A stretch of 64,000 nt of DNA from Limnothrix sp. CACIAM 69d. GTDB lineage: Bacteria; Cyanobacteriota; Cyanobacteriia; CACIAM-69d. Made by a program: the position numbers and the translations under genes. The stretch's first letter is position 1, and every line of letters begins with the position of its first letter. The stretch covers positions 1-64,000 of the forward strand of contig MKGP02000097.1 in assembly GCA_001913845.2 (NCBI GenBank), read 5' to 3'. The notes beneath the pieces are model-generated. The model did not search any database and was not told the origin of the DNA. It worked only from the letters and a program-made list of their open reading frames with translations. Shown here one piece after another: positions 10,531-27,176 of this stretch.

Positions 10531-10780
10531 GTTTGCCTGAGGGAATATCTGAAACGCAAAAAAGCTAACGATATCAGCCGGTTGTCATTAGATTTTGTCA
10601 CTAGATCAACAGATCGACTCAATAGACCCCGTTAGCCGTGTCTCTATCCTACCCAGGTGATTTGACTGATGACCAATGGCAACTCCGGGAAGCCCTGTTG
10701 CCCATCACATCAAGGCAAGTGGATGACCCCGCATAGCGGTGTATCACTACTTCGCCGTTTGGTGACGATGGCACTTTACC
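10531..10780 (+). pseudogene. IS5-like transposase 5' remnant (left border of cyanobactin island)
   Basis: From GTG 10638 the DNA reads VSLSYPGDLTDDQWQLREALLP, the start of an IS5-family (DUF4096-type) transposase, and stops after 32 residues (TAG 10734-10736). Right after, VYHYFAVW (about 10739-10762), a motif normally about 60 residues further on, appears and is again broken by TGA. The gene is therefore internally deleted and dead. The upstream part (10531-10637, including AAAAAAGCTAAC and TTGTCAtTAG) resembles 18005-18115 on the other side of the island. Confidence 0.75.
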
Positions 10781-10891
10781 ATCCACCTCAAAACAGGTCA
10801 AAACCCTTTTTCTGAGTGCCAAGGCGCTTGGTTCGCCTCAATGAATTGACGGGCAACCCTCGTCACTTCAGGACATTCCGATACCTGGCAC
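10781..10891. repeat. 111-bp direct repeat, copy 1 (3' end of Y1 transposase)
   Basis: Identical base for base to 11306-11416. On the minus strand it encodes the last 31 residues of the Y1 transposase (RCQVSECPEVTRVARQFIE...) plus 3' flank, but nothing upstream of that. It is a solo remnant fused directly to the dead IS5-like transposase. Confidence 0.95.
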
Positions 10892-10993
10892 TAGGTTGTT
10901 AGATCGCATTAGATCGCAAGGCTCCAAAACAGGCAACTGAATTATTTTTCTACTGCATTTGCCTGACCATTTTTGCTCTCTTTCACTGAGCTT

Positions 10994-11029
10994 GATTGCA
11001 TCAAAAATAAAGAAATTGTAGATGCAATC
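10994..11029. promoter_or_regulatory. 9-bp perfect inverted repeat upstream of the cyanobactin precursor
   Basis: GATTGCATC (10994-11002) and GATGCAATC (11021-11029) are separated by 18 A/T-rich bases and followed by CTTTTATACCC. It lies about 100 bp before the precursor start. It could be an operator or, with the short T-run, a weak terminator of upstream readthrough. A TTGACG at 11045-11050 is a possible -35 box but its -10 is poor. Confidence 0.4.
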
Positions 11030-11127
11030 TTTTATACCCTAGTCTTGACGATGCTGAATAAAGAGGGCTAGCTTCTCTGCAGTTCCTGATAGGAACAATG
11101 CCCCTCACTCAACTTGAGGCAAAGACC

Positions 11128-11289
11128 ATGAAGAAAGATCTGAAAGCGCTGATGCCGCAAACCGTGGCTCCCGTGCAGCGCGAAACTTCCGCGACTGTTT
11201 CTCGTGATGGGAATGCGATCACGCCCCATAAATACAGCCTGCAAGGGTTTGGGGTAATGATTCCTTTTGCGGGAGACGATGCGGAGTAA
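11128..11289 (+). CDS. Cyanobactin precursor peptide (AcyE/PirE/LimE type)
   Basis: 53-residue ribosomal precursor. The leader MKKDLKALMPQ..APVQRET matches the conserved cyanobactin leader pattern (M-x-K-K-N-L-x-P-Q-Q-x-A-P-V-x-R). The C-terminal tail is FAGDDAE, the recognition sequence I know from anacyclamide/piricyclamide-type precursors, directly after Pro46, the residue PatG-type macrocyclases need at P1. The core therefore ends ..GFGVMIP. Its N-border is not obvious and may lie between Pro33 and Gly40 (PHKYSLQ|GFGVMIP). No Cys lies in the core region, matching the absence of a heterocyclase. His34 and Tyr36 are candidate prenyl acceptors if inside the core. ATG 11128 is chosen over in-frame ATG 11098 because GAGG (11116-11119) precedes it by 8 nt and the leader then starts canonically. 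Confidence 0.9.
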   Translation: MKKDLKALMPQTVAPVQRETSATVSRDGNAITPHKYSLQGFGVMIPFAGDDAE

Positions 11290-11305
11290 CACGCCTCATT
11301 CTATC

Positions 11306-11416
11306 ATCCACCTCAAAACAGGTCAAAACCCTTTTTCTGAGTGCCAAGGCGCTTGGTTCGCCTCAATGAATTGACGGGCAACCCTCGTCACTTCAGGACA
11401 TTCCGATACCTGGCAC
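11306..11416. repeat. 111-bp direct repeat, copy 2
   Basis: Perfect copy of 10781-10891. Here it is the native 3' end of the Y1 transposase gene. The precursor gene lies in the 414 bp between the two copies. Confidence 0.95.
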
Positions 11417-12108
11417 CGGGTGGGGTCAGCCAGACGGTTGGGGTTGAGTCTTTCTCGACCCTCAACCTGGCTTTTTTCCCCACCTCCCCGACTGGATAAA
11501 CGAGCATCAGCCAGCAGGCGGCTACCCCAAGCATATTTCCTTGGCTCTTTAGACTTCGGCTTATATCGCTGACAAAAACCCTTGTATTTCTTGGCACATT
11601 CCTCCAAACTTCTGCCAAGTCGCAGAAAAGCTGGATGCCACTGGGTTAATCCATTATCAGTCAAGCGTTCGTAGCTGCCGTAGTTACCGAATTCATAGAA
11701 GAAGGTAGAACGCATTTTTGCCGCTTTTGGATTGCCGTGAATGTAACGCAGGGTATTTAAAGTTCTGTCTCGGTCGGTCGCCGGAAACCCATCGCAGAAA
11801 TACCGCTTTTCCCAAAAATGCCCCGTTCTTCCGAGCATCCGATTAAAACACATCGCCGTGTACCAATTGAGGAAGTGCATAATTTTCGGCAAATCTTCGG
11901 GTTCAGTGGGTTCCAGCAGGTAATGAACGTGGTTCGACATAATGCACAGCCCGTACAGCTTGAACCCGAACTTATCCAATGCCTTGCGAATGGCATAAAG
12001 AAACACCTCCCGACATTCTCGCCGCGATAGTTTAAACTCCCGATTGTTGCAGCGGGTTGTGATGTGATAAGCGTATCCCTGCTTGAAAATTCTCGGTTTT
12101 CTGGGCAT
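11323..12108 (-). CDS. Y1/HUH transposase inserted in the cyanobactin operon
   Basis: Single-strand transposase of the Y1 (IS200/RAYT-related) superfamily. Motifs: YHITTRCNNREF near the N-terminus, the HUH pair in MSNHVHYLLEP, WEKRYF and the catalytic Tyr in RYIHGNPKAAKM. A long basic C-terminal region (about 170-260) ends in the segment that is also duplicated at 10781. About 261 residues, apparently intact. The start is taken at M-PRKPRIF (12108); an in-frame ATG at 12120 adds four residues. It is read against the cyanobactin genes and sits between the precursor and the prenyltransferase, so it may uncouple their transcription. It is unrelated in detail to the smaller RAYT at 1300. Confidence 0.9.
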   Translation of the reverse strand: MPRKPRIFKQGYAYHITTRCNNREFKLSRRECREVFLYAIRKALDKFGFKLYGLCIMSNHVHYLLEPTEPEDLPKIMHFLNWYTAMCFNRMLGRTGHFWEKRYFCDGFPATDRDRTLNTLRYIHGNPKAAKMRSTFFYEFGNYGSYERLTDNGLTQWHPAFLRLGRSLEECAKKYKGFCQRYKPKSKEPRKYAWGSRLLADARLSSRGGGEKSQVEGRERLNPNRLADPTRCQVSECPEVTRVARQFIEANQAPWHSEKGF

Positions 12109-12162
12109 CGCTTTGTGCAAATTGTGAATGAGTGACTCATCAAAAAACGAAAGAGCAGCAAA

Positions 12163-13047
12163 GTGTTTAAGTCAACGATCGCACCAGAAGAAAAATTAAG
12201 ATATATTGGCAACCACAAACAAGCCTTTGATATCGAACCGCTCTATCCCCTCGCATTATTTGAAGAGTTTGTTGCCACGACAGGGGACTGTATAATCGAA
12301 TGTTCGGGCAAAATCAAACAAGACCAGCTTTACCCAGCACGAATCGATCTCCAGTTCTCCGACAAACACCATTTCCACAATATTCACACCTCTATTGACT
12401 TCCTAAAACGCGCTGCATCCAGAACCGATGTCAATCTCAATCTCGACATTCTTGCCACCTTTTTGGCAGGCAACTTTGACTACAGCAAAGTTCAAAATAT
12501 CCTCGCGGGCATCGATCTGCGTCAAAATCTTGGCGAATCCAAACTCAAACTCTTTATCCGCATTGGTGACTATCCCGCAAAAATGGCTGTGGCCAAGCAT
12601 CTCTGCAACATTACTCCAGAGTCCGAAGCCATGCTGCGATCGGATACTTTACACATCGGCTTTGACTTTTATTTAGATGGTCGTAGTGCGATCGAACTCT
12701 ATCCTGAATTAAAAAAAGATGAATTTAATCATCCTTTCATCTACAACCAGTTAAAAACAATACTGTCTCCTGAAGCTCTCAAGCCCTTGCCTCTTTGCAA
12801 TTTGTTTGGAATTGGTTTGAGTCCTGCCAATGAAGCCAATGTTCTCTACTACCATCTAGAAAATATTGAAGATTTTTTATCCTACTTTCCCATCAACGAC
12901 ACGGCTCGTCGAGTTCACGATTTTTATCTCCAACAAGAGGGTTCTAGAAGAATGTGGGTTGCCCTTTCAGAATCAGAGATGAAAGCGGGGAGAATTAACA
13001 ACGTGAATCTGTATTACAGCAAAGCTTTTACGAGCCAAAATCCCTAA
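12163..13047 (+). CDS. Cyanobactin prenyltransferase, PatF/LynF/TruF family
   Basis: ABBA-barrel peptide prenyltransferase family that adds dimethylallyl or geranyl groups to cyanobactin side chains or termini (PatF itself is inactive). Family hallmarks seen: N-terminal RYIGNHKQAFDIEPLYPLALFEEFV, AGIDLRQNLGESKLKLFIRI, HIGFDFYLDGRSAIELYPE, NVLYYHLEN, NDTARRVHDFY and the C-terminal NLYYSKAF. 294 residues, the normal length (about 300). The start is GTG 12163; the ribosome site is poor. The stop lies 13 nt before the PatA-like gene, so F and A are probably co-transcribed. Members differ in acceptor: Tyr, Trp, Ser/Thr, Arg, or His as reported for LimF from Limnothrix. Acceptor and donor here cannot be read from sequence by eye; LimF or a close relative is possible. 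Confidence 0.92.
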   Translation: MFKSTIAPEEKLRYIGNHKQAFDIEPLYPLALFEEFVATTGDCIIECSGKIKQDQLYPARIDLQFSDKHHFHNIHTSIDFLKRAASRTDVNLNLDILATFLAGNFDYSKVQNILAGIDLRQNLGESKLKLFIRIGDYPAKMAVAKHLCNITPESEAMLRSDTLHIGFDFYLDGRSAIELYPELKKDEFNHPFIYNQLKTILSPEALKPLPLCNLFGIGLSPANEANVLYYHLENIEDFLSYFPINDTARRVHDFYLQQEGSRRMWVALSESEMKAGRINNVNLYYSKAFTSQNP

Positions 13048-13060
13048 TCTCACTGAAGTT

Positions 13061-15043
13061 ATGAGTCAGAGTTTGGCGAAAGAATTAATTCCTGGTCTTC
13101 TGAGCTTACAAACCCGCACCCAAGGCTCTTCCGATATTCGTGTCGCCGTCCTCGATGGCATTGTCGATACCGACCATCCCTGCTTTGCTGGTGCCACCCT
13201 CAGCCGCCTCCCCACCCTCGCCCTGGGCAAAGCCACCACCGGGGCCATGTCCACCCACGGCACCCACATTGCCAGCCTGATTTTCGGGCAGCCCAACACC
13301 GAAGTTCCCGGACTCGCCCCCCACTGTCGCGGCATCCTCGCCCCCGTCTTCTCCGACGACAACCGCAAACTCTCCCAACTGGATCTCGCCCGCGCCATAG
13401 AACAAGCCGCCGAAGCCGGAGCGCACATCATCAACATCAGCGGTGGTGCACTCACCGATATTGGCGAAGCAGAAGACTGGCTCGATCGCGCCGTGCAAAC
13501 CTGCAAAGAACGCAACATCCTCATCGTTGCCGCCGCCGGAAACGATGGTTGCGACTGCCTGAATGTCCCCGCCGCCCTACCCGCCGTCCTCGCGGTTGGT
13601 GCAATGGATGCCAGAGGTCATCCCCTAGATTTCAGCAACTGGGGAGAAACCTACCAAAGCCAAGGCATTCTCGCCCCCGGTGAGAACATCCCCGGCGCTA
13701 GTCCCGGTGGTGGCATCATTCGGCTCAGTGGCACTAGCTTTGCCGCTCCCATTATCTCGGGTGTGGCTGCCCTGCTGCTGAGCCTTCAGGTGCAACGGGG
13801 CGACGACCCTAACCCCCAAGCGGTGCGGGATGCCATCCTCGCAACCGCTCTGCCTTGTCCCCTTGCCGACACCGAACACGATCGCAAATGTTTGGTCGGT
13901 GTTCTGAATATTCCTGGGGCTGTTCAAAAGTTAACCGGAGAAAAATTAATAGGAGTCAGTATGTCAGACAACCAAGATCAAAGCTTAGAAACCGCACTGA
14001 TAGAAGCCTCCGGTTGCAGTTGCGGCGGTTCCTCCCCACCCGTGGAAGAAGCAGAAGAAATTGTTTCTCCCCCACAGGAGCGCCAACCCGCCCTGGTAAC
14101 GGTCAGTGCGATCGAAACCCCTGTTAACGCCATTACTTCATCAGGAACCCCTATGCCCGAAACCACCAGCGCCCCCATCACCCCCAGCCAAGCTGCTGAA
14201 CCCGCTAATGGCATGGTTTACGCGATCGGTACTCTCGGTTACGACTTCGGCAGCGAAGCCCGCCGCGACACCTTCAAACAACTCATGCCACCCTACGCCA
14301 TTGAAGGAACGCAGATTCCCGCCAACCCCTACGATGCGCGGCAAATGGTCGATTACTTAGGGGAAAACCTATCAGAAACCAAATCGCTGATTTGGACGCT
14401 GAACCTGGAATTGACCCCGATTTATGCAATTGAGCCTACGGGTTCCTTCTCCCGTGAAGTCTATGCTGTCCTCCAAGGCCTCTTGGCAGGTCAGGTCGAA
14501 GCTGAAGACAGCCCAGACTACATTGAGCGGGTCAGCATTCCCGGCCTGATTACGGGTCGCACCGTGCGTCTGTTCTCTGGTCAAGTCGTCCCCGTCATCG
14601 AACCCCAAAGCCCACGTGGGATGTACGGCTGGCACGTCAACACCCTGGTAGATACCGCCCTAGAAGCCGTGGGTACCGAACAGGGCGGCGATGAAAGCCA
14701 AATGCGCCGCACGCTCAGCAGCTTCCTGAATCGGATTTATTACGATCTCCGCAACTTGGGCCAAACCTCCCAAGACCGCGCTCTCAACTTCGCTGCCACC
14801 AATGCGTTCCAAGCCGCCCAAACCTTCTCGGAAGCCGTTGGCGCGGGGATGGAACTGGACAGCATCAATGTGTCCAAGAGTCCCTTCTGTCGGATGGACA
14901 GCGATTGTTGGGACGTGCAACTGAAGTTCTTTGATCCGGAAAACAGCCGCCGCGCCAAGAAGGTCTTCCGTTTTACGATTGATGTGAGCGACCTCATTCC
15001 TGTCACCCTGGGCGAGGTGCGTTCCTGGTCGTCGCCTTACTAA
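13061..15043 (+). CDS. PatA-like cyanobactin leader protease (S8 subtilisin + cyanobactin DUF)
   Basis: Expected to cut the precursor at the N-side of the core. Subtilisin domain in residues about 1-285 with catalytic Asp32 (AVLDGIVD), His66 (STHGTHIASLIFGQ) and Ser226 (GTSFAAPIISG); the oxyanion Asn is in AAGNDGCDC. The Asp-to-His distance is short (34 residues), as in PatA, without the macrocyclase insertion. A Thr/Pro/Glu-rich linker with CSCGG (about 310-390) leads to the conserved C-terminal domain (about 395-660: YAIGTLGYDFGSEARRDTF, SLIWTLNLELTPIYAI, SPRGMYGW, FLNRIYYDLRNLGQ) shared by PatA and PatG and still without known function. 13 nt after the prenyltransferase gene, so translationally close. 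Call is firm for the family; PatA versus PatG role rests on the missing insertion. Confidence 0.93.
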   Translation: MSQSLAKELIPGLLSLQTRTQGSSDIRVAVLDGIVDTDHPCFAGATLSRLPTLALGKATTGAMSTHGTHIASLIFGQPNTEVPGLAPHCRGILAPVFSDDNRKLSQLDLARAIEQAAEAGAHIINISGGALTDIGEAEDWLDRAVQTCKERNILIVAAAGNDGCDCLNVPAALPAVLAVGAMDARGHPLDFSNWGETYQSQGILAPGENIPGASPGGGIIRLSGTSFAAPIISGVAALLLSLQVQRGDDPNPQAVRDAILATALPCPLADTEHDRKCLVGVLNIPGAVQKLTGEKLIGVSMSDNQDQSLETALIEASGCSCGGSSPPVEEAEEIVSPPQERQPALVTVSAIETPVNAITSSGTPMPETTSAPITPSQAAEPANGMVYAIGTLGYDFGSEARRDTFKQLMPPYAIEGTQIPANPYDARQMVDYLGENLSETKSLIWTLNLELTPIYAIEPTGSFSREVYAVLQGLLAGQVEAEDSPDYIERVSIPGLITGRTVRLFSGQVVPVIEPQSPRGMYGWHVNTLVDTALEAVGTEQGGDESQMRRTLSSFLNRIYYDLRNLGQTSQDRALNFAATNAFQAAQTFSEAVGAGMELDSINVSKSPFCRMDSDCWDVQLKFFDPENSRRAKKVFRFTIDVSDLIPVTLGEVRSWSSPY

Positions 15044-15154
15044 GGGCAACCGCGCAGCCACAAAAAACATCAAGAACTAGAGGCGAGGAGTGAAGAGAGT
15101 GCCTGCCCATCTCATTTCTCGCCACGTCCCATCACAATCATTCTGGCAACTCCG

Positions 15155-15361
15155 ATGGCACTTCCTAAACAATCTCCCCCAGTCAAACGCCCTCATTTCG
15201 TCCACATCCATGACTGTGTGGATGTCCTTCATGGTGGTGGTGAAGACCTGTTGAGCATTCGCATGGACATCATGCACGGCGCTAATTACAACGATCCGGC
15301 TCAGTTTCAATATCCGGCCTATGGCTACTTGAAAATGTCAGGACAAGGGCGTTCTTACTAG
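15155..15361 (+). CDS. PatB/AcyB-like cyanobactin small protein
   Basis: 68 residues. The motif RPHFVHIHDCVDVLHGG followed by DLLSIRMDI, GANYNDPAQFQYP and YGYLKM matches what I recall of the PatB/AcyB/McaB family, small proteins always found in cyanobactin clusters but dispensable or of unknown role in heterologous production. No signal peptide or membrane helix. It lies 111 bp after the PatA-like gene and 64 bp before the PatC-like gene. ATG 15155 has no clear ribosome site; no better in-frame ATG is visible upstream. Confidence 0.8.
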   Translation: MALPKQSPPVKRPHFVHIHDCVDVLHGGGEDLLSIRMDIMHGANYNDPAQFQYPAYGYLKMSGQGRSY

Positions 15362-15425
15362 ATCAAGTCGTCTAGATATGCGACAAACTCGCCACAGCAA
15401 TCGGTGATCTTCGGGAGACAACACC

Positions 15426-15641
15426 ATGGCAAACGATAAAAAATCAAAAAAATCAGCCGAGCAAGTGGCCGAAACAGAGTCGGCTGAAACCAACGATCAA
15501 TCCTCAGAACCCAAAACCAAGAAGGAACCACAACCCTTGACAACCGGCTTGGAGGATTACGGTCGTTGGCGCACGTTTTACCAAGGCTACCAGCGCCCAA
15601 AGAACGAAAAACCGTTTCGGCGCGGCCGAATCTGGTGCTAA
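15426..15641 (+). CDS. PatC/TruC-like cyanobactin small protein
   Basis: 71 residues. A Lys/Ser/Glu-rich, probably disordered N-terminal half is followed by PLTTGLEDYGRWRTFYQGY and the terminal FRRGRIWC. This pattern and its position between B and G suggest the PatC/TenC/TruC family of unknown function. GGGAGA lies about 10 nt before ATG 15426. The identification depends on context and remembered family features, so it is less sure than the proteases. Confidence 0.7.
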   Translation: MANDKKSKKSAEQVAETESAETNDQSSEPKTKKEPQPLTTGLEDYGRWRTFYQGYQRPKNEKPFRRGRIWC

Positions 15642-15825
15642 CCATTTGCGACTAAGCATGGGTTGCTAAGTCGAATCAAAGCCACTGCCGCCAGGTAGCC
15701 CACAAGCTTCAGGATCAACTCCCAATAGTTGCAGTTGGACAGCAAGCAATGCGATTGACTTCCCACGGGTTAATCGCAATTGATGCGTGCGTAATTGATG
15801 CATTGTTCATAAAGTTCTTAAAATT

Positions 15826-17958
15826 ATGCCGAATCTAGCCGATATTTCTGGAATGTCTGCCTTGCGATCGCACACCCTTGGCGATCCGCGCATCAAAATT
15901 GCTGTGCTTGATGGGAAGGTTGATCTTGATCGGGCTTGCTTTCAAGGGGGAAATCTAACTCGAATTGATCCCTACTGGATCGAATCATTTGAAATCGACC
16001 CAGCTGATATTCAAGCCTTTGTTGAAATTGACCTCCATGCCAAAGCAGCAGGTCTCAGTGAGGAGGAATCGGGGAAGCTAATGGAAGCGGCTATCCCCGA
16101 TGAAAACATTCGCCGAAGTATTCACCTACAGAGTCATGCTGCCCACATCATCAGCACCATTTGCGGTCAACCCGGCTCTCCTGTCGAAGGTATTGCTCCT
16201 AGGGCAACAGTAATTAATATTCCTATTGCGGTTAATGGGGAAGATTTCATCAATCCTTTGAATCTATCTCGAGCTATTAGCACCGCGATCGAGCAGGACG
16301 TTAACATTATTCACTGTGCCGCTTGCCATCCTACCCAAAGTGGTATCGCCCACGAATTTATTGAAAAAGCTATTAAACAAGCGCAGGAAAATAATATTTT
16401 AGTCATTGCCCCAGGCGGTAACGATAAGGGTGAATGTTGGTGTATTCCGGCCGTCCTCGATCATGTGCTGACGGTCGGTGCGATGAAAGATACGGGCGAA
16501 CCATTTAAGTTCAGTAACTTTGGCGGTAAATACGCCAGCCAAGGCATTTTAGCCCCTGGTGAAAATGTTCTTGGTGCGCTACCGGGTACCGATATCCCCA
16601 TCCGCCAAAAAGGTACGAGCTGTGCTGCCCCGATCATTACAGGAACAGCCGCCCTCCTGATGAGTTTGCAATTGGAACAGGGTTTGGCTCCCGATGCAGA
16701 AGCGGTACGGGCAGCCTTGCTCAATAGTGCTATTCCCTGCGACCCGGAAACGACGGAAGAGCCAGAACGGTGCTTACTGGGCAGAATTAACATTGCCGGA
16801 GCCTATGAGTTAATTATGGGCACACCGTTGCAATACCAGCAGACGAAGGCTGAGGTGAGCAATCGCCCTGTGGATGATGACTCAGGGGTGGAAATTATTG
16901 CTCCGGAAACTGGTATTGACCAAGGCTATTTAGGCGTTAATAACCAATCTCATCTAACCGTAGTTTCTGAACCTAGTCCTAAAACTGCGATCGCTTCGCC
17001 GGAGGAGCAATTAGTGGTCGCTGCGGCTGTTCAATCCGCAGCGACCACAGCCAATGCAACAACGAATGTGATTTCGGCCACCCCGATCACGCCTTCTGCT
17101 GCCACCACTAGCCCTCGCTCCAACTTGGCTTACACCCTTGGGACGATTGGATATGATTTTGGCACTGAGGCCCGGCGTGACACCTTTAAACAATTTATGC
17201 CGGCCGCTACGGTAGGGAATGTCCAGATTCCTGCCAATCCCTATGATGCCCGTCAAATGGTGGACTATCTGGACGAAAATCTCTTTGAAGCAAAATCACT
17301 GATTTGGACACTTAATCTAGAGCTAACTCCGGTGTATGCCATTCAACCCGTAGGAGCTTTTGGGGCAGAGATCTATGAGATTTTGACCTACTTGCTGGGT
17401 GGGCAAGTATTAGCGGAGGATGATGATAACTATATCGAGCGAGTCAGTATACCGGGAATTGTGATCAACGAAACGGTGCGCCTCTTTTCTGGTCAGGAAG
17501 TACCAATTTTGAAGGTTAATAGTCCGCGTGGAATGTATGGCTGGAAAGTCAATTCATTGGTGGAATCGGCCTTGCAGACGGTTAGTGCCAATCAAGCAGT
17601 TGCTGATGAGAGTCGAATGCGACGATCACTGACTAGTTTTCTTAATCGGGTTTACTATGACCTGCGAAACTTGGGACAATTGGCGCGCGATCGGGCACTG
17701 AACTTTGCAGCAACAAATGCCTTCCAAGCTGTCCAGACTTTTTCAGAGGCTGTAGCCCAGGGAATGGAGTTAGCAGATATTGAAGTTGAGAAAAGTCCAT
17801 TCTGTCGCTATGGCAGCGAGTGCTGGGACGTAAAATTGAAGTTTTTTGACCCTGACAATGGACGGCGAGCCAAGCGGATTTTTCGATTCACGATTGATGT
17901 GAGTGATCGAATGCCAGTCACTCTTGGTAAGGTGCGATCGTGGGCTGTGTCTAAGTAG
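15826..17958 (+). CDS. PatG-like cyanobactin macrocyclase (S8 + cyanobactin DUF), no oxidase domain
   Basis: Expected to remove FAGDDAE and join the peptide ends. Subtilisin-type domain: catalytic Asp29 (AVLDGKVD), His104 and Ser265 (GTSCAAPIITG). Between Asp and His there are 75 residues instead of 34 in the PatA-like paralogue; this extra helical segment (about 48-97) corresponds to the capping helices that let PatG exclude water and macrocyclise. The usual HGTH box is HAAH here. A linker (about 330-430) leads to the conserved C-terminal domain (YTLGTIGYDFGTEARRDTF onward), closely similar to that of the PatA-like protein. The N-terminal FMN oxidase of PatG is absent, consistent with no azolines. 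The 184-bp gap upstream contains TTGACT (near 15750) and may hold a separate promoter. Start ATG 15826. Confidence 0.92.
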   Translation: MPNLADISGMSALRSHTLGDPRIKIAVLDGKVDLDRACFQGGNLTRIDPYWIESFEIDPADIQAFVEIDLHAKAAGLSEEESGKLMEAAIPDENIRRSIHLQSHAAHIISTICGQPGSPVEGIAPRATVINIPIAVNGEDFINPLNLSRAISTAIEQDVNIIHCAACHPTQSGIAHEFIEKAIKQAQENNILVIAPGGNDKGECWCIPAVLDHVLTVGAMKDTGEPFKFSNFGGKYASQGILAPGENVLGALPGTDIPIRQKGTSCAAPIITGTAALLMSLQLEQGLAPDAEAVRAALLNSAIPCDPETTEEPERCLLGRINIAGAYELIMGTPLQYQQTKAEVSNRPVDDDSGVEIIAPETGIDQGYLGVNNQSHLTVVSEPSPKTAIASPEEQLVVAAAVQSAATTANATTNVISATPITPSAATTSPRSNLAYTLGTIGYDFGTEARRDTFKQFMPAATVGNVQIPANPYDARQMVDYLDENLFEAKSLIWTLNLELTPVYAIQPVGAFGAEIYEILTYLLGGQVLAEDDDNYIERVSIPGIVINETVRLFSGQEVPILKVNSPRGMYGWKVNSLVESALQTVSANQAVADESRMRRSLTSFLNRVYYDLRNLGQLARDRALNFAATNAFQAVQTFSEAVAQGMELADIEVEKSPFCRYGSECWDVKLKFFDPDNGRRAKRIFRFTIDVSDRMPVTLGKVRSWAVSK

Positions 17959-18004
17959 TGGTCGCATCCAATGTAGCTAACCGGTGTTAGATCGCTGGGT
18001 TGAA

Positions 18005-18115
18005 GGTTAGAGAATGTTTGAAATGTTTGAGAAGTAAAAAAAGCTAACTTCGTTAGCTTGTCATTGATCAACTCAACAGACTCCATTAGTCATGTCTCTA
18101 ACCTACCCAGTCGCA
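18005..18115 (+). mobile_element. IS5-like left-end remnant, right border of cyanobactin island
   Basis: Carries the same elements in the same order and orientation as 10531-10660: an AATGTTTGAAA-like terminus, AAAAAAGCTAAC, TTGTCATT, GATCAAC, TCAACAGACTCC, then ATG TCT CTA ACC TAC CCA (MSLTYP), the transposase N-terminus. After six matching codons the similarity ends and a stop follows within 12 codons (18094-18132). Confidence 0.65.
18036..18059 (-). terminator. Rho-independent terminator downstream of pilC
   Basis: Read on the minus strand: an 8-bp perfect stem AAGCTAAC/GTTAGCTT, loop GAA, then a run of T (seven A on the plus strand, 18036-18042). It lies 160 bp beyond the pilC stop. The hairpin is built from the IS remnant, so the pil operon may use a terminator supplied by a mobile element. 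Confidence 0.7.
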
Positions 18116-18221
18116 AGAACCATCTGCTAGAAGAATTTGCCCGAAAGAAATCCGCCTGAAGTTTTGATGATCGATCGCTTTGCCTTGGAGTTTTGATGGT
18201 TAATAGCGTTGCCTTGCAGCA

Positions 18222-19481
18222 CTACTTAATCGCATCCATTACCGCAAAGATGGGCAAATACATCGCCAACAAAATCGAACCAACCATCCCCCCAATCACC
18301 ACAATCATCAACGGCTCCAACATACTGGTTAGACCCTTGATTGCTTGCTCCACTTCATCTTCATAGAAGTCCGCCACCTTCATCAACATTTTGTCGAGTT
18401 CCCCGGTTTCCTCACCAATCATCATCATCTGAATGGCCATGGCCGGAAAGACCTTATAGCGCTCGATCGCCGCACTGATCGTCCCCCCACCTTGAATTTC
18501 GGCAATGGAGGAAGCCACCGCATCCGAAACCACCTGGTTATCGGCGGTGTCTTTACAAATTTCGAGGGCTTGAATAATGGGCACACCCGATCGCGTCAAG
18601 GTCCCAAAGGTGCGGCAAAAACTAGCCACCGAGCTTTTCTGAATGATGTCTCCAAAAATCGGCAACTTCAGAAATACGGCATCCATTTGGCGCTTGCCAG
18701 CCGGTGTTTTGTACCACAGGTCATAGACAACTTTCCCGATGACCAAGGCAATGACCAAAAACACCACATAGAAATTCTTGCGCCCCTTGGGATCATCGTC
18801 GGGGAAGGTGGGGCCACGCAAAAACTCACTGATATTAATCATGATTTGCGTGAACGCCGGCAATTCAGCCCCCAACTTGTCGAAAATTCCCGTAAAGGTT
18901 GGCAGCAGGAAAATGGTCATTCCCAAAAAGATAATGACCGCCAAGGATCCGACCGTGGAGGGATAGGACATGGCGGACTTAATTTGGTTTTGCAGCCGGG
19001 CGGCATTTTCCAGCAGGGTTGCCAGTCGGGTGAGCACTTCATCGAGCACCCCCCCAATTTCACCCGCTTCCACCATGGCGCAATAGAGCTTACTGAAGAT
19101 GTCGCCGTGTCGTTTCAGCGAAGAAGATAGGGTTTCCCCTTCTTGCACATCAGCATTGATTTTAAATAGGGCTTTTTTCAGTTTGGGATTTTCACATTGA
19201 TTGCTCAAAATATCCAAACATTTCACCATGGCAATGCCCGCATTAAACATGGCGGAAAATTGCCGAGAAAACACAGCCAAATCCTTTACGGTCACGCTGG
19301 CCGTGAGGCTAGCGAGGTCAATGTCTAGGCCGCTTTTCTGTTCCTTGAGATCGCGAATTTGGGCTTGGCTAAACCCAGCGGCAATCAGTTTATTACGCGC
19401 CCCGTTGATGCTTTCTGCTTCAACAACTTCGCGCTTGCCTTTGCCGTCGGGGCCAGCGATGGTGGCGATGAATTTAGCCAT
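18222..19481 (-). CDS. pilC: Type IV pilus inner-membrane platform protein PilC
   Basis: Platform on which PilB and PilT drive pilus assembly and retraction. 419 residues with two T2SSF domains (about 75-195 and 280-400): LAVFSRQFSAMFNAGIAMVKCLDIL with EAGEIGGVLDEVLTRLA, repeated as SFCRTFGTLTRSGVPIIQALEI with GEETGELDKMLMKVADFYEDEV. Membrane helices are at about 170-195, 225-245 and near the C-terminus (MIVVIGGMVGSILLAMYLPIF). Last gene of the minus-strand set pilB-pilT-pilC, 210 bp after pilT. Typical length and order for cyanobacteria. Confidence 0.95.
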   Translation of the reverse strand: MAKFIATIAGPDGKGKREVVEAESINGARNKLIAAGFSQAQIRDLKEQKSGLDIDLASLTASVTVKDLAVFSRQFSAMFNAGIAMVKCLDILSNQCENPKLKKALFKINADVQEGETLSSSLKRHGDIFSKLYCAMVEAGEIGGVLDEVLTRLATLLENAARLQNQIKSAMSYPSTVGSLAVIIFLGMTIFLLPTFTGIFDKLGAELPAFTQIMINISEFLRGPTFPDDDPKGRKNFYVVFLVIALVIGKVVYDLWYKTPAGKRQMDAVFLKLPIFGDIIQKSSVASFCRTFGTLTRSGVPIIQALEICKDTADNQVVSDAVASSIAEIQGGGTISAAIERYKVFPAMAIQMMMIGEETGELDKMLMKVADFYEDEVEQAIKGLTSMLEPLMIVVIGGMVGSILLAMYLPIFAVMDAIK

Positions 19482-19691
19482 AGGGCGCTGCTCAAACTAC
19501 GTGAGTCCTCAGAATTCTGTCGAGAGTCCGTTGCCAGAGGTGGCGGCAGGGTTGGGAAGCGATCGGGCTGGGGATGGGGGCGATCGCCCGAGGGGTTTAC
19601 CGAGCGATCGCCCCGTCCGTTGCCATGGGTTGATCGGTTATCCACCCGATCGGTTGTGTCGCATTAGTGATGTCGCAGTGATGCGGCGTTC

Positions 19692-20780
19692 CTAGCGACC
19701 AGCACCCACCTTGCCCCCCAGCAACCGCTGTAGCTCGTCGGGTTTGGAGCTTTTGCCCAGGGCATCTTCGTAGGTGATCTTGTTTTCTTGGTATAGCTTC
19801 GCCAGGCAAGATTCCATGGTTTGCATCCCCTGCTTACCGCCCATTTGAATGGTGGAATAGATTTGCGAGGTTTTGCCCTCCCGAATCAGGTTCGCCACAG
19901 CGGGGGTATTCAGCATAATTTCGTGTGCTGCACAGCGACCGCCCCCAACTTTCTTGACCAAGTTTTGTGAGCAAACCCCCACGAGGGAGTTGGCCATCTG
20001 GGCCCGGACTTGGGGCTGTTGGATGGGGGGAAACACGTCCAAAATCCGGTCGATCGTCCCGGCGGCGGAGTTGGTGTGCAGGGTTCCGAAAACCAAGTGA
20101 CCGGTTTCAGCGGCGGAGATGGCCAAGGAAATGGTTTCCAAGTCCCGCATTTCCCCCACCAGAATGATATCCGGGTCTTCCCGCAGCGCTGCCTTCAGGG
20201 CGTTGGCAAAACTCTTGGTGTCTTCGCCCTTTTGCCGCTGGTGGAACAGGCTTTTCATGTTCGGGAACACATACTCGATCGGGTCTTCCACGGTTAGGAC
20301 ATGCTCCGCGCGGGTGCGGTTGATGTAGTCCAGGCAGGCGGCCAGGGTGGTGGTTTTGCCGGATCCCGTTTGCCCCGTGATCAGCACCATGCCCCGGGGC
20401 CGCTCCGCCATCTCCAGCAGCACCTGGGGCAAACCGAGTTTTTCAAAGTTGGGAATTTGGGAAGCCAGGGCCCGCAAACAGGCGGCCCAGCAGCCCCGCT
20501 CGCGATAGACATTCACCCGGAACCGCGACAGGCCCTTCACCCCATAGGCGCAGTCCAATTCCCAGTTTTGCTCCAGGTCTTTCCGCTGGTTGTTGTTGAG
20601 CATACTGAAAATCAGCTTTTGGCAGTCCTGGGAGTCGAGCACTTCGCCAAATTGCGGTTGGGGGGTCAGTTTGCCGCTAATCCGAAAATAGATGGGCGCA
20701 CCGGCTTGGATATGCATGTCGGAGCCGCCTTGTTCGATCAGCGATTCCATCACGTCTTCGATCATGTAATCCAGTGGCAT
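19692..20780 (-). CDS. pilT: Type IV pilus retraction ATPase PilT
   Basis: Hexameric ATPase that depolymerises pili for twitching and phototactic movement and DNA uptake. 362 residues. Walker A GQTGSGKTT (about 135), Asp box (VEDPIEYVF), Walker B (DIILVGEMRD), His box (TGHLVFGTLHTN) and the PilT C-terminal region around AHEIMLNTPAVANLIREGK (the AIRNLIRE-like motif needed for retraction). N-terminal PAS-like part starts MPLDYMIEDVMESLIEQGGSDMHI. Start ATG 20780. It lies between pilB (269 bp upstream) and pilC. Confidence 0.96.
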   Translation of the reverse strand: MPLDYMIEDVMESLIEQGGSDMHIQAGAPIYFRISGKLTPQPQFGEVLDSQDCQKLIFSMLNNNQRKDLEQNWELDCAYGVKGLSRFRVNVYRERGCWAACLRALASQIPNFEKLGLPQVLLEMAERPRGMVLITGQTGSGKTTTLAACLDYINRTRAEHVLTVEDPIEYVFPNMKSLFHQRQKGEDTKSFANALKAALREDPDIILVGEMRDLETISLAISAAETGHLVFGTLHTNSAAGTIDRILDVFPPIQQPQVRAQMANSLVGVCSQNLVKKVGGGRCAAHEIMLNTPAVANLIREGKTSQIYSTIQMGGKQGMQTMESCLAKLYQENKITYEDALGKSSKPDELQRLLGGKVGAGR

Positions 20781-21049
20781 GGTCGCTACTCCTGTCGAGT
20801 GAGGTTAGGTCGAATGGGGATCGAATGAGGGGTCGATCGAATGGGGGTCGATCGGGATCAAAACGCTGGCAGGGCCCGAAAAGTTGGCAGGGTTTGAACA
20901 ATTCGAGCGGGGCCAACCATGGGGAAACGTCGAAACCGGGGATGAATTCAGCCTTGAACTTGGCCTGAAGATGCCCAATTGGGCGGGCGATCGTATCAAG
21001 ATCGCATTCCCTGCCAACCGGCGAGCCAGTCATGGGCGATCGCCAAAAG

Positions 21050-23080
21050 CTAGCGACCAGTCACCAACGGCTCTTCAAACCGAGGCGTGAGGCAATAGGG
21101 ACAGTCCATCCAGTCTGGCTGGAGTTCTGCCGCGCAGGTGCGACAGGTGAGAGCGCTCTTGCGCTTGGCCTTCAGTTCCGCTTCTAGCCCGGTGTCGGTG
21201 AAGGTGACCCGTTCCACTTCTTCAAAGGTGGTCAGCCCTTCTCGCACCAGATCTAGACTGTAGGCCAACAGGGTGACCATCCCTTCTTCAACGGCGGCCT
21301 CTTTAATGCGATCGGTTGGGGCCCCTTGGGTAATCAGGTTTTGCAAGGTTTCCGTTACTTGCAAAACCTCATAAACCCCGCAACGGCCCTTATAGCCCAC
21401 ACCGCCACACTTGGGACAAAGTTTGCCCATTTCGCCCAGGGTCTTGCGCTCATCGGGCGACACCACATTGGCCTTGTAGAAGGTCAGATGGGATTCTTGG
21501 TTGGCGCTCATGCCGTAGCGGGCCAACTCTTCGGAGGCGGGGGTGTAGGGCACGCGGCATTCGCTGCAAACGCGCCGCATCAGCCGCTGGGCCACCACGC
21601 CCAATAGGGCCCCTGCCACCATGAAAGGTTCCACGCCCATTTCATCCAAACGGGCGATCGCCCCGGATGCGTCGTTGGTGTGCAGGGTGGTTAACACCAA
21701 GTGACCCGTGAGGGCCGCCTCGATCGCCGTTTTTGCCGTTTCCTTGTCCCGCGTCTCACCCACCAGAATCACATCCGGGTCTTGGCGCAGGAATGCCCGC
21801 AGGATCCGCGAAAAGTCCAGCCCCTTTTCCCGAATCACCTGCACCTGGGTAATCCCGGGCAAGGCATATTCGATCGGGTCTTCGGCGGTACTGATGTTGA
21901 TGCCCGGGTCGTTCCGTTCCGCCAAAATGGAGTAGAGCGTGGTGGACTTCCCGGAACCCGTCGGCCCCGTCACCAAAATCAAGCCAAAGGGGCGGCTGGC
22001 CATCTCTCGCACCAACTGCAACGATTCCGGCCGGCCAATCAGCTTATCCAGACCCAGTTGTGTTGAGGAGTTATCCAAAATCCGCAACACAATCTTCTCG
22101 CCGTAGCGACTGGGTAGCACATTGACCCGAAAGTCCACTTTCCGCCCTTCAAAGACCCGGCGAATCCGCCCATCCTGGGTGTCCCGTCGTTCGGCAATGT
22201 CCAGGTTGGAAATGATTTTGAACCGGGAGGTTACGGCCGGAACCACCTTTTTCGGGAGCCGGAACACCTCTTGCAGCACCCCATCCTTGCGGAACCGAAT
22301 CCGCATTTCTTCCTCTTGGGGTTCCACATGAATATCCGAAACGCCGTCTTGCAGGGCCTTAATCAAGACCTTGTTCACCAGGTTGACGATCGGCCCCGAC
22401 TCCGCATCGTTCATGGAGCTGGCCAGGTCGTCCGTCTCCAATTCGTCGGAAGCCTCTTCCATTTGCATGGCTTCGAGGTTCTGCAAATCCGACTCATCGA
22501 AACTGACGGCGGCGGAAGTTTGGCGGGAAGCCTGTTGGGACTTGCGAGCCGCTTCGTCTAGGTATTGGCTAATGATGGCCTGGTAGTCTTCGGGAGCAAT
22601 CACCCGCCGAATCAGGGCCAAGTTTTGGGGCCGCAGGATGCGATTCAAATCATCCAGCGCATCTAGGTTATCCGGGTCGGCCATAGCCACCATCATGGCC
22701 GGCGAGTCGCCCCGCTGGGCCCGCCCCAGGGGCAGCAACCGATAGCGACGGCAAACATCCACCGGAATCAGGGTTTCAATGCATTGCTCCACCTGGGCTG
22801 CGGACACCTCTTCAATTTCCGGGTCGATCGCCTCAACCCCGTGGAGAATTTTGAGTTCAAACAGCAGTTGCTTTTTGTACTGGCGCACCAATTCCGGCGG
22901 CACTTCTTTGCCGGCGATCGCTGCCAGCACTTCCATCAGCGGTCGGCCCGACTGGCGGTGTTCAGCCAAAGCGCGGCTCATTTGGTCGGGATCCACATAG
23001 CCCGACTGCACAAGTTTGTTACCGAAGGGCGAAAAATTGCTTTGGACAACCAGGGCGCGCCGGTTTATGGAGTTTGTCAT
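21050..23080 (-). CDS. pilB: Type IV pilus assembly ATPase PilB with C-terminal zinc ribbon
   Basis: Hexameric ATPase powering pilus extension. N-terminal MshEN-type domains (about 20-180), an acidic linker (about 185-225), then the GspE/PilB motor: Walker A GPTGSGKST, Walker B DVILVGETRD, His box TGHLVLTTLHTNDA. A tetracysteine insert lies near 565 (CSECRVPY...CPKCGGVGYKGRCG). The C-terminus carries an extra zinc-ribbon-like motif CRTC..CPYC (last 30 residues), which the standard proteobacterial enzyme lacks. ATG 23080 is preferred (MTNSINRRALV); a GTG at 23092 would add four residues and overlaps its own AGG. First gene of the pil operon. Confidence 0.95.
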   Translation of the reverse strand: MTNSINRRALVVQSNFSPFGNKLVQSGYVDPDQMSRALAEHRQSGRPLMEVLAAIAGKEVPPELVRQYKKQLLFELKILHGVEAIDPEIEEVSAAQVEQCIETLIPVDVCRRYRLLPLGRAQRGDSPAMMVAMADPDNLDALDDLNRILRPQNLALIRRVIAPEDYQAIISQYLDEAARKSQQASRQTSAAVSFDESDLQNLEAMQMEEASDELETDDLASSMNDAESGPIVNLVNKVLIKALQDGVSDIHVEPQEEEMRIRFRKDGVLQEVFRLPKKVVPAVTSRFKIISNLDIAERRDTQDGRIRRVFEGRKVDFRVNVLPSRYGEKIVLRILDNSSTQLGLDKLIGRPESLQLVREMASRPFGLILVTGPTGSGKSTTLYSILAERNDPGINISTAEDPIEYALPGITQVQVIREKGLDFSRILRAFLRQDPDVILVGETRDKETAKTAIEAALTGHLVLTTLHTNDASGAIARLDEMGVEPFMVAGALLGVVAQRLMRRVCSECRVPYTPASEELARYGMSANQESHLTFYKANVVSPDERKTLGEMGKLCPKCGGVGYKGRCGVYEVLQVTETLQNLITQGAPTDRIKEAAVEEGMVTLLAYSLDLVREGLTTFEEVERVTFTDTGLEAELKAKRKSALTCRTCAAELQPDWMDCPYCLTPRFEEPLVTGR

Positions 23081-23751
23081 AGCAGGTGACACCTAGCGGG
23101 ATCGAAGGCGCATCGATCGGGCGATCGGGCGCGAGGAGCGAAACGGACGGGCAATCAATTCAGCTACAGGGTCCAACTCAGCTACAGCATGACCAAGGTA
23201 TACCCCGGTCTACCTCCCGAAAACAACAGCCCGCAGCCACGCACCTCCAAGGATCGAAGCTGGATCCTGAAGCTGGATGCCTAGGAATTACAGGCATTGA
23301 CACTGATTGGTTTTTGGGCCATGGTTTTGAGTTTTGGGCCATGGTTTCGAGCCTGTTCTTGGGCCGGTTTCAGGGTTGGTTGGCGGGTCATGCAAAGCCA
23401 ATGGATCAAAACCAAATCAATCCTAAGCTAAAGGTCTCGGGAAAGCTCGCATCTAGAGCTTGCATCTGAGGGAGGGGCCCGGGCGGGAAATGTTCGATTC
23501 GGCCGGGTGGCGTTCTAACATAGGTTGAGCCTGTGCGGGTCACTGTCCGGGCAGCCCTGCGGGACAGGTGGGTGATGGGCAATCTGCACTTCAGCGAGCA
23601 CTGGAGTGGTGAGAGCCACCCACGGGCGATCGCCCCGATTAGGCCAATTTGCACAGGTCAGGAAATTTGACTGTTGTTGGACGGTTGATTGTCAACACTC
23701 AACAAGAACTCAACAAAAACTCCATTGTGATCACTAGCTAGCGAGGAACCA
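23081..23751. other. 671-bp divergent spacer between pilB and grpE
   Basis: Promoters for both operons should lie here. I see TTGACTGTTG...GATTGTCAA (about 23669-23697), which has inverted TTGAC/GTCAA ends, about 55 bp before grpE. No CIRCE element (TTAGCACTC) is visible. No convincing gene; the longest frames are not family-like. Confidence 0.4.
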
Positions 23752-24486
23752 ATGACCTACAGCCCTGAAGAGAACCTGACGGAAGACAATGCCTCGGTGA
23801 ATGACCCGGCCCCCGAAGCGGCAGTAGAAACCCCGGCCGCCGAAGCGCCGACCCCCGAAGCCGCCACCCCCGAAACCAGCGCCACCGAGGAAGCACCGGC
23901 CACCCTGGATGACCTGGACTTGTCTGAGTTGGAAGAACCGGCAGCCGAAGGAACCTATGGGCCAAAGGTGGCGGACTTGCTGCGGGAAATTGAGGGCTTG
24001 AAGGGGCAACTGGACGATCGCACCGGCCAGCACATGCGTTTAACGGCTGACTTTGAGAACTTCCGCCGCCGCACCGCTAAAGAGCGCGAGGAATTGGAGT
24101 TGCGGATTCGCTGCGATACGATCCGCGAGCTGTTGTCCGTTATTGATAACTTTGAGCGGGCCCGATCGTTCATCAAGCCCCAAACCGATGGGGAATTGAA
24201 TCTGCACAAGAGCTATCAGGGTATTTATCGCCAGTTGGTGGACAGCCTGAAGCGGTTAGGGGTGGTGAAAATGCGCCCCGAGGGCCAGGAATTTGACCCG
24301 AACTTGCATGAGGCGGTGATGCGGGAGCCGTCCAATGAGCATCCGGAAGGCACGGTGCTGGAGCAGTTGCAGGATGGTTATCTGTTGGGCGATCGGGTGT
24401 TGCGCCATGCCATGGTGAAAGTTGCCGCTCCCGGTGAGCCTGTGGTAGCGTCTGAGGACAACGACCAGGCCGCTTCTGAGTCCTAA
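23752..24486 (+). CDS. grpE: GrpE, nucleotide-exchange factor of DnaK
   Basis: Releases ADP from DnaK. 244 residues: a long acidic Ala/Pro/Glu-rich N-terminal tail (1-70), a coiled-coil helix (about 80-130: LTADFENFRRRTAKEREELE), then the four-helix and beta-wing head (DSLKRLGVVKMRPEGQEFDPNLHEAVMREPSNEHPEGTV segment, which includes the GrpE signature). The tail is longer than in E. coli but usual in cyanobacteria. First of the co-directional chaperone set grpE-dnaK-dnaJ. Confidence 0.95.
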   Translation: MTYSPEENLTEDNASVNDPAPEAAVETPAAEAPTPEAATPETSATEEAPATLDDLDLSELEEPAAEGTYGPKVADLLREIEGLKGQLDDRTGQHMRLTADFENFRRRTAKEREELELRIRCDTIRELLSVIDNFERARSFIKPQTDGELNLHKSYQGIYRQLVDSLKRLGVVKMRPEGQEFDPNLHEAVMREPSNEHPEGTVLEQLQDGYLLGDRVLRHAMVKVAAPGEPVVASEDNDQAASES

Positions 24487-24974
24487 GGGCCGCCGGATGA
24501 GCAATGGCGCACCCGTTGGGCCCGGGGTCAATGATGATTCAGCGATGGCCCTGGGGCAATCGCCTCGGTTATCGATTCGTGATCGGCTAATCGATCGTCC
24601 CATCATCGATCGTCCCAGGCTCTGGCCCAACGGCTCCGGGTATGGTTCCGGGTTTAGTGCTGATGTGGTGGCCTCCTCTTCAGCCCAGTTTCGTCATTGG
24701 CTCTACCTGGCAATTTGTTCTAGCAGCTTGTTCTAGAAGTTTGGGTTCTGACCGTTGGGGTTCCAAAAAAAATTCGAGTTCCGGCACTCTCAGCTCTCGA
24801 TCTTAAAGTTTTAGAAATTGAGCTTGAAACTATTCATCGCCGGGTTGCGGTGTGTTTGTTCCGAAAACCGGTCAATATGAAGGCCAATGGAAACCGCCTG
24901 GGTATTGATGAGGTATCGATCAATCTTGCCGTTATGGGGATGATTGAACCGCTGCTGCCATTGAGTTGAAAACT
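24487..24974. other. Spacer and likely dnaK promoter region
   Basis: 488 bp between grpE and dnaK. It contains a short duplication (atcgatcgtccc, twice, about 24592-24616) and a repeated TTGTTCTAG (about 24715-24735). The last 150 bp are less GC-rich. No CIRCE and no gene seen. Confidence 0.35.
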
Positions 24975-27176
24975 ATGGGAAAAGTTATCGGGATCGATCT
25001 TGGCACGACCAATAGCTGCGTCGCCGTTCTGGAAGGCGGCCAAGCGATCGTCATTCCCAACTCGGAGGGGGCCCGCACCACTCCCAGCATTGTCGGGTTT
25101 GGCAAGGGGGGCGAACGGTTGGTGGGGGAGCTGGCCAAACGGCAGGCGGTCACCAACGCCGAAAACACGGTCTTTAGCATCAAGCGTTTTATCGGTCGTC
25201 GTTGGAATGAAACCGACTCCGAGCGGCGTGTCATGCCCTACACCTGTGTGGCCGGGCGCGATGAGACCGTGGATGTGAAAATTCGCGACCAGTCCTACAC
25301 GCCCCAGCAGATTTCTGCCATGGTGCTGAACAAGCTGAAGCAGGACGCGGAGACTTACCTGGGGGAGGCGGTCACCCAAGCGGTGATCACGGTTCCTGCC
25401 TATTTCACCGATGCCCAGCGCCAGGCCACGAAGGATGCGGGCCAGATTGCGGGTCTGGAAGTGCTGCGGATCGTGAATGAACCGACGGCGGCGGCTTTGG
25501 CCTACGGTGTTGACAAGCAGGATGTCGATCGGGCGGTGCTGGTGTTTGACCTGGGCGGCGGCACGTTTGATGTGTCGGTGTTGCAACTGGGGGATGGGGT
25601 TTTTGAAGTGAAGGCCACGGCCGGGAATAACCACCTGGGGGGCGATGACTTTGATAACTGCATCATTAGCTGGGCGATCGAAGAGTTCAAGGCGATCGAG
25701 GGCATTGACCTGCTCGAAGACAAGATGGCCCTCCAGCGCCTGCGGGAAGCGGCAGAGCGGGCCAAAATTGAACTGTCCGGTTCCCCAACCACCTCCTTGA
25801 ACCTGCCGTTTATCACCGCCGACGAAACGGGGCCCAAGAATTTGGAAATGGAGCTGACCCGCACCAAGTTTGAAGAACTGGTGGCACACTTGGTGCAGGC
25901 CACGCTCGACCCGGTGGATCAAGCCATTCGGGATTCGGGCCTTTCGCCCGATCAGATTGATCGCATCATTTTGGTGGGGGGTTCCACTCGCATTCCCGCC
26001 GTCCAACAGGCCGTCAGCGCTCGGTTTGCGGGTCGTCAGCCCGATCGCTCCGTGAATCCCGATGAGGCCGTGGCCCTGGGGGCCGCCATCCAAGCAGGGG
26101 TCTTGGGCGGCGAAGTGCAAAACCTGCTGTTGCTGGACGTGACTCCCCTGTCCTTGGGGTTGGAAACGCTGGGGGGCATGTTTACGCGGATTGTCGATCG
26201 CAACACCCCGATTCCCACCTGCCGATCGCAAGTCTTTTCCACCGCGATCGATGGTCAAACCTCCGTGGAAATCCATGTGGCCCAAGGGGAGCGGGCCATG
26301 GTTGCCGACAACAAGAGCCTTGGCCGATTCCTGCTAACCGGCATTCCCCCCGCTCCCCGCGGCCTGCCACAGATTGAAGTCTCCTTTGAAATCGACGCTG
26401 ACGGAATCCTCAAGGTCTCCGCCGTGGACAAAGGCACGGGCCAAAAACAAAGTATCCGGATCACCAATACCGGTGGTCTGTCCACGGAAGAAGTGGAGCG
26501 GATGCGGCAGGATGCGGAAAAATTTGCAGATCTCGATCGCAACCGACGGCAGCGCGTGGATCTGAAAAACCAGATCGATAGCCTGATGTATAGCTATGAA
26601 TCGGCACTCCAAAGCAATGCCGATTTGATCGATGATTCGTTGCGCCAAGTGCTGAAAACCCAGGCTGACACCCTTGGGCGATTGGATAGCGACCCAGAAG
26701 CACGCTTTGAGGATTTACAATCGGCGTTCAATGCACTTCAGGAATCCCTGCTCTCGGTGGGTAAACGGGCTTATCAGAATTCGGACGCTGCCAACAAGCC
26801 CCCATCTTCCCCGCAATTCCCATCCCCCGCTCCCGCTCCTTCCGTGACGGGGCCAACCAGTTCAGCATTCAGTTCCCCCCCGATCGCCTCCACCCCGGTC
26901 ACAGCGCCGCCCGGGACTCCCGTGGCCACCAGTCCCGCGCCTGTCAGCGTCCCCAGCCCCAGCCCGGTTCCGGCGGTCACCCCTGCTGCGCCTGCGGTGA
27001 ACCTGTTGGCCAATGGGGATGGGAATAGCCTTTCGATGCCGGAATTGAGTGTGGATCCGCCGTCCCCGATCGCCTCGATCGCCCTCACGGATTTGGGCAT
27101 TGAGTTACCGGACGATGACGATTCGGAATACGATGACTCCACGATCGCGGCCGACTACGAGGCGATCGAGGACTAA
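24975..27176 (+). CDS. dnaK: Hsp70 chaperone DnaK
   Basis: ATP-driven chaperone. Nucleotide-binding domain in residues 1-385 ([44 protein letters not shown]), hydrophobic linker in [18 protein letters not shown], substrate-binding domain to about 505 and a helical lid to about 610. The last 120 residues are Pro/Ala/Ser/Thr-rich and end acidic ([18 protein letters not shown]). At 733 residues it is about 95 longer than E. coli DnaK; extended tails are known in cyanobacterial DnaK2/DnaK3-type proteins. ATG 24975 ([10 protein letters not shown]) is chosen over TTG 24966. The neighbouring grpE and dnaJ support a stress role. Confidence 0.95.

Follow-up and report, generated by a model that had tools for sequence, protein, structure and literature searches.

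Cyanobactin clusters which lack heterocyclase and oxidase form a recognised class, exemplified by the anacyclamide, prenylagaramide and piricyclamide clusters, and the pir cluster of Microcystis aeruginosa PCC 7005 runs in the order E2-E3-F-...-A-B-C-E4-...-G (PMC3428304). The presence of a transposase has been noted singly in lim (PMC6256058, PMC12341861), sph and pag clusters. In the sphaerocyclamide (sph) cluster it lies between sphE and sphF, while ISpagF is reported from the prenylagaramide (pag) clusters of seven Planktothrix strains; the relevant passages of the sph and pag papers do not describe a fixed spacing or motif-ended cassettes. The cluster of Limnothrix sp. CACIAM 69d was published in 2018 and assigned to the piricyclamides; it was described as having a single precursor, with an IS200-like gene separating pirE3 from pirF, in a draft genome of 4.5 Mb in 100 contigs with 55.23% GC (PMC6256058), and the limnothamide cluster is listed as MIBiG BGC0002629 (PMC10145562). 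LimF of CACIAM 69d catalyzes His-C2 and Tyr-O geranylation in vitro and is also active in vitro on the predicted macrocycle. In 2025, a second lim cluster, containing four limE genes and a transposase, was described from strain BL-A-16 in a paper which also cites limE1 and limE3 (PMC12341861).

The DNA analysed here (the window) is a stretch of 64,000 nucleotides from Limnothrix sp. CACIAM 69d, and contains a 7.6 kb cyanobactin island at 10542-18128. This island is almost certainly the lim cluster of this strain, an anacyclamide/piricyclamide-type pathway, as its F protein is identical to LimF of PDB 7vmw over 294/294 residues except for the start codon residue (GTG), while PDB 8je4, likewise named LimF, differs at two positions. 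Both the island and the published cluster (PMC6256058) have the LimF sequence, a single pirE and, separating it from pirF, an IS200-like gene; limE1 of the later paper (PMC12341861) was not found in the present assembly, which has a single precursor. The lim cluster is thus real but not new and, being known, serves here as a solved example. Its biosynthetic genes, identified by HMM profile searches judged against curated cut-offs, are as follows:

11128..11289, + strand: E (limE/pirE), precursor of 53 aa (TIGR04446, 68.7 bits, cut-off 35; alternative start at 11098)
12163..13047, + strand: F, prenyltransferase LimF of the LynF/TruF/PatF family (TIGR04445, 307.6 bits, cut-off 140)
13061..15043, + strand: A, PatA-type N-terminal protease with S8, PatG_D and PatG_C (TIGR03895, 911 bits, cut-off 421)
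15155..15361, + strand: B, PatB/AcyB/McaB family protein (TIGR04220, 115.3 bits, cut-off 55)
15426..15641, + strand: C, PatC/TenC/TruC family protein (TIGR04447, 44.4 bits, cut-off 30)
15826..17958, + strand: G, PatG-type macrocyclase without oxidase domain (TIGR03895, 843.5 bits, cut-off 421)

The island combines PatA- and PatG-type subtilisin proteases with a precursor made up of leader, core and C-terminal recognition sequence, as expected of a cyanobactin cluster, and has neither heterocyclase nor oxidase domain, as expected of the anacyclamide/piricyclamide type. All six genes score above their cut-offs, in agreement with the order E-F-A-B-C-G and the coordinates proposed in a sequence-only reading of the window, whose inventory was right for these six genes but omitted a Y1 transposase (11323-12108, - strand) and a 125-bp repeat. 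That reading had also found no PatG oxidase domain and no YcaO/PatD gene, and both observations hold. The only Pfam domains of G above threshold are Peptidase_S8, PatG_D and PatG_C, so an oxidase domain is absent; G has an insert between the catalytic Asp and His, as typical of PatG, and its best PDB match is the PatG protease/macrocyclase entry 4h6x. YcaO is missing from the island, and a search for an unlinked copy found none in the whole genome (99.99% complete, 4,572,073 bp, 100 contigs), while control genomes responded. Genome-wide, only one precursor scores above the PirE model; a possible second one on contig C10 was rejected, as its translation did not resemble a precursor. A contig scan with F as query gave no match, and Rfam matches in the window were tRNAs only. 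A, B and G are closest to those of locus L207 (79, 77 and 73% identity, respectively), and F to those of L038 and L207 (62 and 64%).

The same reading regarded the position of E in front as unusual, but the published pir cluster of PCC 7005 (PMC3428304) runs the same way, so that E first is a known pir order. Both clusters have the arrangement E-F-A-B-C-(E)-G without D gene and oxidase domain, and several detected cores of the pir cluster end in Pro, as in lim; the pir cluster differs in having several precursors and extra ORFs. Microcystis F proteins are about 43% identical to LimF and differ from it in residue specificity. The sph and pag clusters have the transposase in common with lim, but other core peptides.

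The leader, the core and FAGDDAE of E align with those of other PirE precursors, and FAGDDAE, the C-terminal recognition sequence, is invariant in an alignment of seven PirE-type precursors. Protease A would cleave the leader off the precursor, and macrocyclase G would remove FAGDDAE and join the ends to give cyclo(KYSLQGFGVMIP) or cyclo(HKYSLQGFGVMIP), with calculated [M+H]+ of 1321.70 and 1458.76, respectively, to which LimF would add a geranyl group (+136.13) at Tyr-O or His-C2. No azole rings are expected, because the pathway has no YcaO and no oxidase. We infer these processing steps and the core boundaries from the precursor and its enzymes; the unheterocyclised, head-to-tail cyclic peptide forecast earlier fits a pathway without heterocyclase or oxidase, and the prenylation then raised as a possibility is now predicted as isoprenylation, as F is identical to the characterised geranyltransferase LimF. 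The start of the core is ambiguous. The precursor of the detected piricyclamide ILGEGEGWNYNP reads GLTPL/ILGEGEGWNYNP, a precedent for a cut one residue past 'TP' which by analogy suggests the core KYSLQGFGVMIP, without His, while the activity of LimF on His suggests HKYSLQGFGVMIP.

The gene omitted from the earlier inventory is encoded on the strand opposite to E and F, between the two, and is part of the following arrangement:

11323..12108, - strand: RAYT-like Y1 (HUH) transposase of 261 aa (PF01797, E=2.6e-17)
11290..11322, no strand: spacer of 33 nt, from the stop of E to that of the convergent transposase gene (seven loci have 32-33 nt)
11400..11415, - strand: motif TGCCAGGTATCGGAAT, junction of transposase body and precursor cassette
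10772..10896, - strand: orphan copy of the transposase-tail repeat, with motif TGCCAGGTATC at 10875-10890

The transposase reaches 56.4 bits against the NCBIfam RAYT model NF047646, below the cut-off of 80, and is therefore named RAYT-like only. It resembles RAYT/REP and IS200/IS605 enzymes in its Y1_Tnp HUH domain and in the few intact copies per genome, and differs from RAYT/REP in staying under the NF047646 cut-off and in its linkage to a RiPP precursor. The genome holds one full copy in the cluster, a second one of 63% identity at another place and, 0.5 kb away from the first, a fragment of the tail, while no copy was found in the five nearest genomes. The tail fragment is part of a 125-bp direct repeat which flanks the precursor (10772-10896 and 11297-11421). 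The two tail copies of the window are 99% identical right of the motif and unrelated left of it, which suggests that a cassette was lost upstream of E; the orphan copy at 10772-10896 is thus, judging from this comparison, probably the scar of a lost precursor cassette. RNA folding past E was not convincing (z = -1.59).

The same pairing recurs in other cyanobacteria. From the transposase side, 17/80 relatives found by sequence lie in cyanobactin loci, and in a tree of 77 transposases all 16 linked rows (window included) fall into one clade of 20 rows (SH-aLRT 98), the linkage label requiring 3 changes as compared with a shuffled mean of 14.7 (0/500 shuffles). From the F side, among 51 loci collected blind to the transposase, a full copy adjoins F and is divergent from it in 14 (window included), fragments lie nearby in 13 and none is present in 24. 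Many of these 24 loci are heterocyclase clusters with two F genes, and the transposase is also present in some heterocyclase clusters. The usual arrangement in linked clusters is E> <transposase F>, precursor cassettes are found on either side of F, and the stops of E and transposase are 33 nt apart in six loci (window included) and 32 nt apart in an Oscillatoria MAG. In this MAG (L078, 6469-7418), an orphan PirE-type precursor and transposase pair sits amid unrelated genes, with no other cyanobactin genes in the 17 kb examined and a PatA-type gene on another stretch. The distances of transposase and F are weakly congruent (rho 0.19, 76/2000 permutations as high), so strict co-inheritance of the two is not supported. 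Two apparent cases were set aside: what looked like a stray cassette in genome G244 belongs to a cluster in decay, of which remnants of B and C are left, and a transporter-like gene 1.4 kb from a Trichodesmium copy (L145) was not accepted as linkage.

The linked loci also share an end motif. The sequence TGCCAGGTATCGGAAA (up to 3 mismatches) occurs within 200 nt past the stop of 33/60 precursors, at 121-129 nt in 32 of these 33 and at exactly 126 nt in 20, as compared with 40/1200 random windows of the same loci. When the transposase-side or F-proximal copy was compared with an array copy, the junction of copied cassette and transposase gene was found no more than 12 bp from the motif TGCCAGGTATC in 8 of 9 testable cases: homology starts 1, 1, 1, 1, 3, 4, 5 and 12 bp ahead of the motif in these, and 38 bp ahead of it in Planktothrix. 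Close to the 3' end of the transposase genes of other, non-cyanobactin loci, the most frequent 10-mer is GTGCCAGGTA (43/63). The 30-codon tail is open in most unfused cassettes, and dN/dS of the transposases is 0.07-0.29, intact genes only being compared. In one cluster (L181), eight or more precursor cassettes follow each other at intervals of about 460-520 bp, and the motif comes after almost every one of them. 3' of transposase genes outside cyanobactin clusters (L089-L147), the motif is often followed, in many genera, by about 130 nt of conserved DNA which ends TTTACAAGTCTC..CGCGAGAGAAGAG and for which Rfam gave no family at the gathering threshold. In Moorena bouillonii (L080, 10661-12270), two copies of the transposase tail are each followed by a small ORF on the other strand; the two ORFs start almost alike, with a leader-like part of about 89% DNA identity, but have diverged towards the end, and family searches with them gave no convincing match. 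This layout is possibly the same cassette with a different type of RiPP precursor in it.

Recurrent linkage, a shared clade, fixed spacing, a common end motif and sharp junctions are therefore properties of these loci, while a transposase which cuts at the motif and moves or multiplies cassettes is a step beyond them. The leading view is a passive history of insertion, tandem duplication and gene conversion, which fits the data as well as mobilisation or better, and to which a probability of roughly 0.6 is given. The transposase would have inserted once by an ancestral precursor and been inherited since, while tandem duplication copied the unit including the 3' end of the transposase gene. Units inside arrays share 300 bp or more of homology left of the motif, which is the pattern of tandem duplication, the copied homology of Planktothrix extends 38 bp into the transposase, gene conversion of one ancestral junction could yield the same boundary everywhere, and neither an excision product nor an insertion footprint was found. 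A mere passenger fits less easily with a boundary between transposase body and cassette which coincides with one and the same motif, to 12 bp or better, in 8/9 testable loci, with this motif being the commonest 10-mer by the 3' end of related non-cyanobactin transposase genes, with the Oscillatoria MAG pair, which keeps the 32-nt spacing outside any cluster, and with cassettes flanking F on both sides.

A transposase which mobilises or multiplies the precursor cassettes by single-strand cleavage at the motif is a possible but doubtful alternative. It would account for the fixed spacing, with the motif in 33/60 precursors and at exactly 126 nt in 20, and for the sharp junctions at the motif, and is consistent with a clade almost confined to cyanobactin clusters, with the low dN/dS among intact copies (0.07-0.29) and with the open 30-codon tail of most unfused cassettes. 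However, neither an excised form nor a target-site footprint nor any activity was observed, the motif is missing from 27/60 precursors, and in many clusters the transposase is fragmentary or absent altogether. The layout would be integron-like with unrelated chemistry, as integrons use a tyrosine-recombinase integrase, whereas the lim-linked enzyme is a Y1 transposase; it is thus not an integron, and the resemblance is one of layout only. In the fullest form of this alternative, which is rather unlikely, precursors would be mobile as cassettes, for which a resident RAYT-like Y1 transposase would cut and join single strands at TGCCAGGTATC and so add, lose or relocate precursors and diversify the product. 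Each cassette would start at TGCCAGGTATC and comprise the last 30 residues of the transposase, 33 nt and a precursor on the opposite strand. The Moorena locus, with the same tail and an unrelated precursor-like gene, hints that other RiPP classes use the cassette layout too.

The passive history, like its alternative, concerns the interior of the island; its outer limits and a repeat close to them are as follows:

10542..18128, no strand: lim island, delimited by empty-site comparison with sister genome G002
10612..10656, + strand: left copy of a 45-bp direct repeat, IS-like sequence, 84% identical to 18066-18110
18066..18110, + strand: right copy of the 45-bp direct repeat, near the other island end

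The island edges are real, as the sister genome (identity about 95%) runs through the site without a break: homology ends at 10541 and resumes at 18129, with 58 bp of short repeats between the left and right homology. GC content is 50.2% in the island, 56.2% in the remainder of the window and 42.3% in the F gene. The F gene was absent from both other genomes of the genus and from all three genomes of the same family which were examined, and the island appears to have been gained rather than lost at this site, where it sits between two ordinary chromosomal regions, the site being empty in the sister species. The 45-bp repeat and a short reading frame beside its left copy (10612-10736, 18066-18110) are perhaps remnants of the element which delivered the island. 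A composite transposon, with an IS-like remnant at either end, is an improbable reading of the island and kept only as a weak rival, as the 45-bp direct repeat (84%) does lie close to both ends, but the adjoining short, transposase-like ORF (10638-10736) has no Pfam match, and neither an intact IS nor a target-site duplication was found.

The genes pilC, pilT, pilB, grpE and dnaK adjoining the island (18222-27176 in the window) are called limH-L in a paper which proposes a role in cyanobactin export for them (PMC12341861), a suggestion on which the empty site bears. Five relatives, for which searches gave no cyanobactin F gene, likewise have homologues of pilC and pilT adjoining the left-flank sequence, and limH-L are thus probably normal genes of the chromosome which border the insertion site, not members of the pathway. 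As to the transposase, no account of the spacing, the motif or the clade was found in the open literature, though subscription papers may discuss them, and the fixed-spacing pairing of precursor and transposase, recurrent in related clusters, looks new. The linkage bears on how anacyclamide/piricyclamide-type clusters acquire many precursors with hypervariable cores, which would become directly testable if they had, as in the cassette proposal, a single-strand transposase of their own that acts at a defined end motif.
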